Source: a virus. From it: a stretch of 64,000 bases of DNA. The stretch spans positions 1 to 64,000 of the IMG/VR virus record IMGVR_UViG_3300009009_000011; one strand, written 5' to 3'. The notes under the pieces are model-generated. The model did not search any database, was not told the DNA's origin, and saw nothing but the letters and a program-made list of their open reading frames with translations. Below are positions 21,020 to 24,908 of the stretch, piece by piece; position 1 is the first letter of the stretch; the number at the start of each line of letters is the position of its first letter. A program made the translations under genes and the position numbers.

Positions 21020-21493
21020 TTACTTGATTTGTTTTTTGACTATATAAAATAATTTTTTGTTTTTTGTTAGATGCTTTGTAATATTGGTATCTCGTATTTC
21101 TTTCTTTGGAAGAATTATTCCAGATTTAATATCTTTATAATCCAGTTCAAGTTCTATCCATAAATTTGTTAAAACTTCTTTTGGATTTCCCCATAAACAT
21201 TTTGGTAACTTGTTTCTACTAACATCCCATATATTTTTATAGGGTCTTAAAAAAGTTTTAGTTTCTTCTGTAGATTTATGAAAAGATAATCTTGGTAACT
21301 GTATTATTTTTTGTTTATTAAATAAATTAAATACCAACGCTTTAACTGTTGAAACTTTATATCTAAGTTTTATCCCTCCAACATAAGCATCTTTCACTAT
21401 GACCTTTTTATCAGCAATTTCTGGTATATCACTTTGTATAAGATCATAACGATAAAAAGTTTGTTTTTGCATGGTACTAAATTTTAATTGCAT
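21020..21493 (-). CDS. hypothetical protein
   Basis: 157 aa, basic, mixed alpha/beta, no motif recognised. Its start codon region overlaps a candidate promoter that points the other way, into the large non-coding block. It is thus divergent from the proposed RNA gene. Confidence 0.6.
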   Translation of the reverse strand: MQLKFSTMQKQTFYRYDLIQSDIPEIADKKVIVKDAYVGGIKLRYKVSTVKALVFNLFNKQKIIQLPRLSFHKSTEETKTFLRPYKNIWDVSRNKLPKCLWGNPKEVLTNLWIELELDYKDIKSGIILPKKEIRDTNITKHLTKNKKLFYIVKKQIK

Positions 21494-21496
21494 TTG
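21466..21496 (+). promoter_or_regulatory. candidate Bacteroidota-type promoter for the large RNA
   Basis: TTTG (21466-21469), 19-nt spacer, TGCATTTG (21489-21496). The Bacteroidota housekeeping pattern is TTTG-N19 to 21-TAnnTTTG, so one position of the -7 box differs. Predicted start near 21503, at the left end of the folded block. Single candidate, by eye. Confidence 0.45.
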
Positions 21497-21502
21497 TGTT
21501 GA

Positions 21503-23258
21503 AGCACGAGTAACTAACTTATGAGCACATTGTTATCGTAGACAACATTTTAACCCAAAAATTTTACTCTGATGTTTTTATTTATATTATAAGAAAGTTA
21601 TATTGGTTAAGGATATAACGTATCAATCTTATAATCGATGAACCTTGTGAGCAACTATTAAGTACACTCCAATAGTCATACAAATAGGTTTACGCTAATT
21701 ACTCTGTGTGCTTCGGATGCAAGCGTATTACTTAGTTCCCTTCTTCTTCGCTTAGCTTAGAATGTATCTTTTTTTGTACGGACGATGTCGCCGTTAACAC
21801 AAATATTATGTTTTACTTTTTCAGTATGTTGCTTATTATATGATGTCCCACCCTTATAGATAGTGCTATTTACTCCTGTATTTCACCACAGGCTCTAACT
21901 TTTACTTCGATAAATTCTGAAATATATTGAGATATTTTTTGAAAATAAGTAAATTAAATTGTATATTAATGAAATACACAACAAGTTTCGATTTCACACA
22001 TGTATCTATATGTGATGGTGCATATAATAACGGTAGATTTCACCCTCTACCTCACGTCAATGCTAATGTGACTATAGGTTGTCCTTCTATATACAGATAT
22101 CCTTATGACCATTACGGTTTTTTGGCTATTACATCTGTACACTCCAGAATCTGATATGTAGGCATGGATTTATTAACATTATCCAATTTTCGAGACTTAT
22201 TTTATTGCTTATTTCAACGGTGGATTTAAACCACGAAGTCTGACACTCACTGTGAGCTTATGACATCCCAGTTACGGTGGGCTCCCTTTGAACTTAGATA
22301 TAATATGATACCATTGCATATTATAACTTCTCTTGGGACTACGATTACTTTAAGTTTTATTTAAGTATGGTAAAAATAATGCTATATCTACTACTCACGA
22401 TTGGTCTCTGTTCTAATTAGCCTTTGGCATAATTATTTTCGTCAATTGCGGAACAAAGGGTTTGATCTCGTTCTAATCCATCTATCCATTATAAGATGGG
22501 AGCAGCCGTACTTTTTGTTCTACCGTAAGTACCAACGTCACCTAATTAATTAGGAATCTAAAAATCATCGTTTTCCTCTCTATTATACGTTCTGAATCAC
22601 TATAACGTATACCTCCTCTATCGTTACCAGTCAAATGCACTGGTGCTTAAATATTTGAGAAAATGAATTCTCAACTTTCCTCCCACATAGCATTGTATCC
22701 TAATTTTTAGCATTTCATCGGTAACCTTAACAGAGTTATTTTTTGACCCTGGGAATTCCACCCATTGCGTTACTCATTATGTTATATAACTTCGTTCCTA
22801 TACATAAGGTTATCTCAAACCTTGTGGTTTCTCCCATGTCTTACGACACTTCTAACTTTCGGTCTTTAGTTAGCTAACTGTATTAAACTCCTCACCATAT
22901 AACTTGTTTTCTAATAGACAGGTTTTCCCTAATTGTATCAGAATTAGTTTTACGTATCGGGTATACAATCTAGACACATTCTCCATGCATGTTTCGAAAT
23001 ATGCTAGTAAATTGTAGTGACCTCTGTCTTACTCTGTTGACATTCTAACTCAAAGCGAATGCATCCACGGTACTATCGGGTGCAATAAACTTTGTTAAAG
23101 CGGCTATGGCTAAGAGAGAATGAATTACTTCTTTTATAGTTATCATTGTTTAATGCACCACTTTCTGCTTTGTGTTCGGGTTTTCACCACAGTTATTAAA
23201 GGTTTACTCCTACTGGGGTTAATAGCAAATCGCAGCTATCTACTAAACGCAAATAACA
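21503..23258 (+). ncRNA. very large structured non-coding RNA candidate (about 1.75 kb)
   Basis: No convincing ORF on either strand; the longest plus-strand frame is 75 codons and lies inside the folded block. Perfect stems follow each other: 21691-21727 (TACGCT arms, inner UUCG loop), 21875-21892, 22052-22071, 22299-22325 (9 bp), 22414-22435, 22477-22500, 22508-22532, 22541-22554, 22584-22611 (8 bp), 22625-22645, 22655-22674, 22803-22826 (9 bp), 22929-22947, 23060-23084. Several are extended only by G.U pairs on the plus strand, and would be A.C mismatches on minus. The size exceeds GOLLD, ROOL and OLE RNAs, to which it may be an analogue. A TTTGTTGC/GCAACAAA hairpin with a later T-run (23272-23320) could end it inside the next gene. 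Confidence 0.65.
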
Positions 23259-24908
23259 TCAAAGATCTTCATTTGTTGCATTAGCAACAAAATATACAGC
23301 TTTTTTTATTTTTCCATCATGAGTCTTTAAAAGCTTATCATGAAGCACTGTAACACTTTTGATAAAATCAATACCATATTCTTGATTTAGTGTTGCTTTA
23401 TAACTTTTTATAAAATTTTTAAAATCCAATAGACCCATCTTGTTGGCTTCAATAACTTCCTTATTTGGTTTTATCAAAATATGACAATCTTCACCCATCA
23501 TAAATATGAATACTTCCTTGAAATATGGTACATTTTTTAATATACGTTCAAGGTTTTCATAATTACTACCATTGAATGGAGAGTTCTTTATTGCATACTT
23601 TAATTTACCATAAACAAAAAGAAATGTTTTTCCATTAGCAATATCTATAGAAGCATGATCATTAGTGTCATAATACATTCCTTTACTTATTTCTAAGTAG
23701 TTAGCAAAATGATCACTAGCGATTACTAATGCTCCTTCTCCTGTCTGAACATTCAATTCTTTTATACCAACCGTTATATTATTTAGAGGCTCTCCAACAC
23801 AATTTTGTTCTTTGTGTTTCTTTGAGGAATAGTTATTTACAGCTATTACTTGATTAGTTTCTTGTACACCATAAGTAGTGTATATTGGTAACTTACCAAT
23901 AATAGTATGCATAATCCTTGGAGATAAAAATGCATTTAATATAATGATGGCATCTTTACGAGTACCAAAATTAAAGTCCTTTTTTAGACGATGTCGTGCA
24001 ATTAATGTAAATAACCATGAGAAACAAGTTTCTAATAATAATTTACCAAACCATCTAATTTGGTATACATGTTTTACAACTTCATACCAATGATTTTCAA
24101 ATGCATTTGTATTTGTAATAACTATATTTGCCTCTATTTTAGAGAATACAAATCTAGCATCGGAGTATAACGGCCATAATATACACCAAACAGGAGCAAT
24201 TGCGAAACTTATTTCAGAATAAATTGCTTTATTCTTTAAATTTGGCAATAAACTAGTATCTACTAATTTCATGAATGCATTATATACTTCCTCATCGTTG
24301 AAATATACACATTTTGGATAAGTAGAATCAGCTCCAGAAGAGAATACACCTATTTCACGGTTCCTTTTTTTAACATGAAAATCATGAAAGATAATGTCTT
24401 CTAATTCGTTTGCATTATACGGACCATTATTTATGGCTTCTAAATCCATTTCTAGATCTTGATAGGTATAACCTTTTATAAATGGGATGTTATTAATAAA
24501 TAGTTTACTGTCTATATTAAATGCAGTTTTGTAACATGGATTTCCACGCACTCTATTTACAACATCATATTCTTGTACATTAACTGATGTAAATAAGATA
24601 TTTATATCAGAATTAGTTATTATACCAGAAACCATTGCTGATTTTATATTTGGTGGTATTAAATAGAAATCTACATTCTTTAATATAAGTGCGATATAAC
24701 ATGCAATATAAGATGTAGAATTAGCAGCCCACAAGGCAAATCTTAAATCTTGCCCATATTCTTTTTGTATAATATTTATAACATACATGAACTTAAATAC
24801 TTCTTTTATAAAAGCTACAAAAGTAATATAATTTTCATATACATTAACAAATATTTTATCATTCCACCTTAAATGAAAGATGTTGATGATAGCTTGTATT
24901 AATTTCAT
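23259..24908 (-). CDS. ANL-superfamily adenylate-forming enzyme (acyl/aryl-CoA ligase-like)
   Basis: 549 aa with the full ANL motif order. An early segment resembles the A1/A2 region (LWAANSTSYIACYIALILKN, 59-78). A3 is FSSGADSTYPKC (189-200), A5 is TTYGVQETN (344-352), A7-like is YYDTNDHASID (412-422), A8 region is VYGKLKYAIKN, and A10 is KTHDGKIK with the expected lysine K533. Such enzymes activate a carboxylic acid as acyl-adenylate, then pass it to CoA or another nucleophile. No carrier-protein domain is fused. Very unusual in a phage. Start overlaps the 123-aa gene by 4 nt. Confidence 0.8.
   Translation of the reverse strand: MKLIQAIINIFHLRWNDKIFVNVYENYITFVAFIKEVFKFMYVINIIQKEYGQDLRFALWAANSTSYIACYIALILKNVDFYLIPPNIKSAMVSGIITNSDINILFTSVNVQEYDVVNRVRGNPCYKTAFNIDSKLFINNIPFIKGYTYQDLEMDLEAINNGPYNANELEDIIFHDFHVKKRNREIGVFSSGADSTYPKCVYFNDEEVYNAFMKLVDTSLLPNLKNKAIYSEISFAIAPVWCILWPLYSDARFVFSKIEANIVITNTNAFENHWYEVVKHVYQIRWFGKLLLETCFSWLFTLIARHRLKKDFNFGTRKDAIIILNAFLSPRIMHTIIGKLPIYTTYGVQETNQVIAVNNYSSKKHKEQNCVGEPLNNITVGIKELNVQTGEGALVIASDHFANYLEISKGMYYDTNDHASIDIANGKTFLFVYGKLKYAIKNSPFNGSNYENLERILKNVPYFKEVFIFMMGEDCHILIKPNKEVIEANKMGLLDFKNFIKSYKATLNQEYGIDFIKSVTVLHDKLLKTHDGKIKKAVYFVANATNEDL

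Follow-up and report, generated by a model that had tools for sequence, protein, structure and literature searches.

A gene-free block of the crAss-like phage replication module carries a conserved structured RNA that may be a single giant molecule

Our data show that the minus strand of a gene-free block in a crAss-like phage almost certainly encodes a conserved structured RNA. The block lies at positions 21494–23258 of the window (i.e., the whole 64,000-nt stretch analyzed here, which corresponds to bases 1–64000 of a 101,841-bp virus record). Since the portal protein in the window is ~50% identical to the portals of gut crAss-like phages and its DNA polymerase is phrog_1252, the source record was assigned to the crAss-like phages. 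An initial annotation had proposed a giant structured noncoding RNA at this place, and this proposal is borne out by covariation well above the controls, by the absence of an ORF, and by the absence of an Rfam match. Large ornate phage RNAs are recognized as long ORF-free regions with conserved covarying structure, including pseudoknots, and such a region is what we found.

The interval comprises 1765 bases between the minus-strand ORFs 23259–24908 and 21020–21493, and it is free of genes, as the initial annotation had stated. Its longest ATG/GTG/TTG ORF has 75 codons' worth of protein (75 aa), reassignment of TAG to Q or TGA to W opened no credible frame, and no ORF is conserved. A second IMG/VR contig (35.6 kb) carries the identical stretch (100% identity), so an assembly accident is unlikely. 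The block belongs to the replication module; it shares its strand with the DNA polymerase gene and lies transcriptionally upstream of it. The block and its two neighbors are as follows:

21494–23258, minus strand: block of the proposed giant structured RNA, free of genes, with homologues in six further crAss-like contigs
23259–24908, minus strand: upstream neighbor, an ANL superfamily AMP-binding enzyme of 549 aa, adjoining the block in 7/7 phages
21020–21493, minus strand: downstream neighbor, a basic protein of 157 aa (pI 9.95), adjoining the block in 7/7 phages

The 157-aa protein matched no known family and gave no informative fold match (predicted structure with pLDDT 74; all fold matches at E 0.26 or above). 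The ANL enzyme had no match among 50,697 GenBank phage records.

To find relatives, contigs chosen for their related DNA polymerase or portal were searched by blastn with the block as query. This search uncovered a homologous block in five IMG/VR contigs (G002, G004, G009, G010, and G007), with E values from 1e-102 for the nearest (G002) to 5e-5 for the most distant, and in each of them the block is flanked by homologues of its two neighbor genes in the window. A further contig, L077, was reached via the downstream flanking gene and is the seventh member. The block is thus present in six other IMG/VR crAss-like contigs, always between the ANL enzyme and the 157-aa gene, and it measures 1580–2010 nt across the seven members (the L077 value being approximate). 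As far as the contigs reach, all seven share one gene order: a large protein, proteins of ~200 and ~125 aa, the ANL enzyme, the RNA block, and then proteins of 157, 159, 197, and 185 aa, among others. Patches of the block retain 74–82% nucleotide identity to G009, G010, and L077, three contigs for which protein identity of the ANL enzyme is only 28–30%; mean identity is 54% in the block versus 51% in flanking coding DNA. The order of the conserved segments is constant in the seven phages, and both G010 and the window have large insertions between them. Pattern scans for the near-invariant hairpin GGGTGGAATTCCC and for the tRNA T-arm-like hairpin recovered the known contigs plus L072, which was rejected as a chance match to the DNA pattern since it has no block homology; L082, from a bacterial MAG, matched the DNA pattern only. 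Blastn of the block against GenBank phages returned short chance matches only.

Two side observations concern the neighborhood of the block in these contigs. The ANL frame of G004 (L063:1792–3414) has an in-frame TGA at codon 25, avoidable by a later start. In addition, several members have a tRNA gene within a few kb on the downstream side of the block (L064:7574–7643, L077:9277–9348, and L097:6144–6230), which recalls the occurrence of GOLLD and ROOL close to tRNA islands.

The individual elements of the block, listed from the 5' end of the RNA, are the following:

23222–23239, minus strand: 5'-most conserved hairpin, stem ATAGC/GCTAT, read by eye in the alignment
23032–23038, minus strand: 5' strand of a long helix, AACAGAG, pairing with 22729–22735, three pairs changed on both sides
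22768–22890, minus strand: window-only insertion in the RNA (approximate), holding the earlier proposed stem 22803–22826
22769–22773, minus strand: pseudoknot helix GTAAC, pairing with 22721–22725 (GTTAC), double changes in 5/5 pairs and 100% of cells paired
22751–22763, minus strand: near-invariant hairpin GGG-TGGAATT-CCC
22729–22735, minus strand: 3' strand of the long helix, CTCTGTT, partner of 23032–23038
22585–22610, minus strand: hairpin ATACGTT...AACGTAT, proposed earlier, with a stem-loop at a similar place in most relatives
22478–22499, minus strand: hairpin CCATCT...AGATGG, proposed earlier, re-formed with other bases in 7/7
22366–22372, minus strand: TACCAT strand of the best covarying helix, its partner ATGGTA being located in the next hairpin's loop (pseudoknot)
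22299–22325, minus strand: hairpin TATAATATG...CATATTATA, proposed earlier, re-formed in 7/7, loop pairing with 22366–22372
22267–22281, minus strand: conserved hairpin CCCA-CCGTAAC-TGGG with a 7-nt loop
22220–22234, minus strand: conserved tRNA T-arm-like hairpin GTGG-TTTAAAT-CCAC
21875–21892, minus strand: hairpin CCTGT...ACAGG, 4/5 pairs with double changes
21497–21531, minus strand: conserved 3' box AATGTGCTCATAAG...GCTTCAACA, immediately ahead of the downstream gene

In the relatives, the stem of the 5'-most hairpin reads GTAGC/GCTAC, ATGAC/GTCAT, or ATTGC/GCAAT. The T-arm-like hairpin at 22220–22234 lies within the conserved context GCTTCGTG(G)GTTYRAATCC(C)ACC. Two pseudoknots are formed, one by the helix 23032–23038/22729–22735 with the helix 22769–22773/22721–22725, and the other by the loop of the hairpin at 22299–22325 with 22366–22372.

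When the block is folded as a single sequence in 300-nt windows, z-scores computed against dinucleotide shuffles range from +0.6 to −2.8, and those of the flanking genes reach −3.7. The block alone folds no better than its flanking genes, and the structure becomes visible only through comparison with homologues. Along most of the block, RNAalifold energies lie below those of column shuffles that preserve conservation (sense z to −7.9), with a mean z of −4.0 versus −2.4 for a coding control of similar divergence (the fam2–fam4 genes of the same seven genomes). Because this coding control is also moderately negative, z values alone overstate the signal, and the case for an RNA therefore rests on covariation.

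The best Watson-Crick stacks in the block score 10.4, 8.2, 8.1, 7.2, and 6.1, and all five surpass every shuffle (the best of 12 reaching 4.9); the coding control scores at most 4.5. Three named helix sets were then scored in independently made alignments, with 98.2, 96.9, and 95.3% of cells paired and with 22, 35, and 15 double-change cells versus 7.9, 12.0, and 6.0 after shuffling. None of 500 shuffles reached the observed double-change counts, these being statistics from seven sequences and from shuffles that ignore the relatedness of the sequences. Sliding the named helices by 1–3 columns lowered pairing to 29–56%. Covariation among the homologues thus exceeds shuffles, shifted registers, and the coding-sequence control alike. 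Helices in the block reach spans of ~300 nt; pairings at the longest range, between the 5' domain and the 3' end, were not above shuffles.

The strand was read from the same helices. Among covarying helices selected on Watson-Crick pairs, the minus strand gives 12 G.U versus 1 A.C cells (1 and 12, respectively, if the plus strand is read), and sense (i.e., minus-strand) folds are lower in 15 of 21 RNAalifold windows. Together, these two results place the RNA on the minus strand. The initial annotation had argued for the plus strand from extra pairs that would be G.U only in that orientation, an argument that fails on these counts, and had set the RNA on the strand opposite to its neighbors, where in fact RNA and neighbors are all on the minus strand. 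The stems it cited all exist in the sequence, at a frequency not above chance in the window alone, and comparison divides them: those at 22299–22325 and 22477–22500 recur as hairpins with different bases in all seven phages, that at 22584–22611 recurs at a similar place in five of the six other phages, and that at 23060–23084 is present in several. The remaining three of the seven fared worse, since 22803–22826 falls within the window-only insertion, 22625–22645 is confined to the window with no counterpart in relatives, and 22052–22071 is inconsistent among homologues.

Known RNA families do not account for the block. Rfam 15 was scanned at gathering thresholds and then at E ≤ 10 for the window block and E ≤ 5 for the six homologues. 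At gathering thresholds the window block had no match to GOLLD, ROOL, OLE, HEARO, or any other family, and at E up to 10 it gave chance-level sub-threshold hits only, the best being tmRNA_permuted on the opposite strand (19.4 bits versus a cut-off of 47). The GOLLD and ROOL covariance models matched neither the window block nor the six homologues at these relaxed limits, and the OLE, HEARO, tmRNA, and rRNA models gave sub-threshold hits only.

In kind, the block resembles the very large structured RNAs of phages. GOLLD, which forms an RNA-only nanocage (PMC12286853), is likewise a very large structured phage or prophage RNA with no ORF; many of its members exceed 800 nt, whereas the blocks described here measure 1.58–2.48 kb, have no Rfam match, and lie in a crAss-like replication module. 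On our best reading, the block RNA would be larger than GOLLD by a factor of two to three. The initial annotation had deemed it larger than 16S rRNA, which fits these figures as lengths of blocks rather than of mapped transcripts. ROOL (Rumen-Originating, Ornate, Large) is a phage-borne large pseudoknotted RNA with no protein product that also forms a nanocage (PMC12286853). The present block, known from sequence, is phage-borne, large, and pseudoknotted as well, but it differs in its hosts, in having no Rfam match, and in length, the studied ROOL example being 659 nt. OLE is also large, ornate, and conserved, but it is a bacterial RNA working with proteins (PMC12286853), whereas the present block belongs to phages and has no match to its model. 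Group I and group II introns are large catalytic RNAs reported from crAss-like or other phages (PMC7886860 and PMC12350094); unlike them, the block has no Rfam match and no split host gene, and it occupies one intergenic place in all members. A structured RNA of this kind is not described in the crAss-phage papers searched, a set that covers few subscription papers and preprints. Yutin et al. (PMC7886860) report short-ORF regions whose polarity is mixed, notably those of the Zeta group, and the passages on these regions do not mention structured RNA. The claim of a new class agrees with these results, and our best reading is that the block represents a new class among the giant ornate RNAs of phages, a kind already known.

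Gut Suoliviridae genomes were also analyzed, a comparison made without p-crAssphage itself. In cr60_1 (Buchavirus, Suoliviridae), a blank 2142-nt stretch lies upstream of the polymerase gene; its homologues occur in Buchavirus, Blohavirus, and Buorbuivirus, and short conserved patches extend it to Afonbuvirus, Aurodevirus, Birpovirus, and Culoivirus. In all gut Suoliviridae genomes examined, an unannotated covarying block occupies the matching locus; the blocks span four subfamilies, always at the same locus, and measure about 2.05–2.5 kb. Ten gut representatives display strong conserved structure (−299 kcal/mol summed on the gene strand versus −261 on the other), and in a 6-bp hairpin whose loop is conserved, 60/60 cells are Watson-Crick, with many pair types. 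An Rfam scan of a gut block gave no match, and no such block was found in crAss001 (Steigviridae) or crAss002 (Intestiviridae).

Neither nhmmer, run both ways between environmental and gut blocks, nor a covariance model of the environmental core revealed a match between the two groups. Since these searches were negative, the case for uniting the two families draws on their agreement in position, size, and base composition and on one downstream anchor gene common to both (hhalign 95%, E 1.7e-8). We consider the gut block to be probably the same element, deeply diverged. RefSeq leaves the locus blank or places a doubtful antisense ORF there: the hypotheticals KNV50_gp34 (L084:1840–2277) and KNV54_gp20 (L085:1838–2275) run antisense inside the block and are probably not genes. 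Other features seen in these genomes include a second blank stretch of 1.55 kb in cr60_1 (L083:16801–18349, between KNV49_gp80 and gp79), an annotated tmRNA at L083:12092–12567 of cr60_1 that overlaps a tRNA-Leu gene and is likely a mis-annotation, and a perfect 27-nt direct repeat in the cr6_1 RNA block (L091, block positions 1583–1610 and 1684–1710).

We favor, with moderate confidence, the view that the minus strand of 21494–23258 yields one giant trans-acting noncoding RNA, a single molecule. It would be a highly structured RNA of ~1.7 kb, transcribed together with the replication-module genes and perhaps processed out of the surrounding operon transcript afterward. As the first conserved hairpin (23222–23239) begins ~20 nt past the upstream stop codon, processing or an internal promoter is likely; no Bacteroidota-type promoter motif was present at a consistent place in the blocks. 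During infection the RNA could act in trans, folding by itself to serve as a scaffold or assembly RNA, much as scaffold-like assembly has been proposed for GOLLD and ROOL (PMC12286853), and the adjacent basic 157-aa protein is a candidate partner. The ends of the RNA, its single-molecule nature, and its action in trans are features that we infer. A broader reading, which we put forward tentatively, is that a single ancient RNA class of 1.6–2.5 kb is core to Suoliviridae and related environmental crAss-like phages and functions in trans during phage replication, as an assembly of RNA alone or of RNA with protein.

Alternatively, the structured RNA might serve in cis, as a giant leader or an intercistronic regulator that controls the 157-aa gene and later genes, with no independent life. 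The block does reach within a few nt of the downstream start codon on the same strand, and the downstream gene is kept beside it in 7/7 environmental phages; however, the gut block of like size precedes a different, apparently unrelated gene, and to our knowledge the block is far longer than known leaders, which makes this option rather unlikely. Similarly improbable is an island of several smaller adjacent structured RNAs. The strongest helices are indeed local or bridge a few hundred nt, pairings at the longest range are not significant, and large insertions separate conserved segments in G010 and the window, but helices of up to ~300 nt and interlocking pseudoknots join neighboring segments, segment order never changes among the seven phages, and no promoters or terminators stand out inside the block.

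An inverted-repeat element at the DNA level, such as an origin of replication or a packaging site, would suit the location in the replication module, on the polymerase strand and transcriptionally upstream; DNA pairing does not predict the asymmetry between G.U and A.C cells, however, and pseudoknotted pairing suits RNA and not cruciforms, so we regard such an element as very unlikely. As for a decayed gene, a recoded gene, or a self-splicing intron, recoding and many introns are described for crAss-like phages (PMC7886860), but the chance that any of these explains the block is negligible. Against a decayed or recoded gene, neither codon reassignment opens a frame, the longest frames differ in place and frame between members, and conservation at least equals that of the flanking coding DNA. 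In addition, the flanking genes are whole, distinct, and unrelated rather than exons of a split host gene, and Rfam gave no group I or group II match.

If the block does produce one molecule, this RNA would rank with the largest structured noncoding RNAs known, ribosomal RNA aside. It is a clearly defined target for study by cryo-EM, SHAPE, and RNA-seq of infected cells, and it makes the role of giant phage RNAs such as GOLLD and ROOL testable in another system. The gut counterpart, which seems to have gone unnoticed until now, fills about 2% of Suoliviridae genomes, and a gut survey (PMC7886860) gives this family, its Delta group, as the largest crAss-like group. Should the tentative reading of a single ancient class prove true, it would concern some of the most abundant viruses of the human gut.
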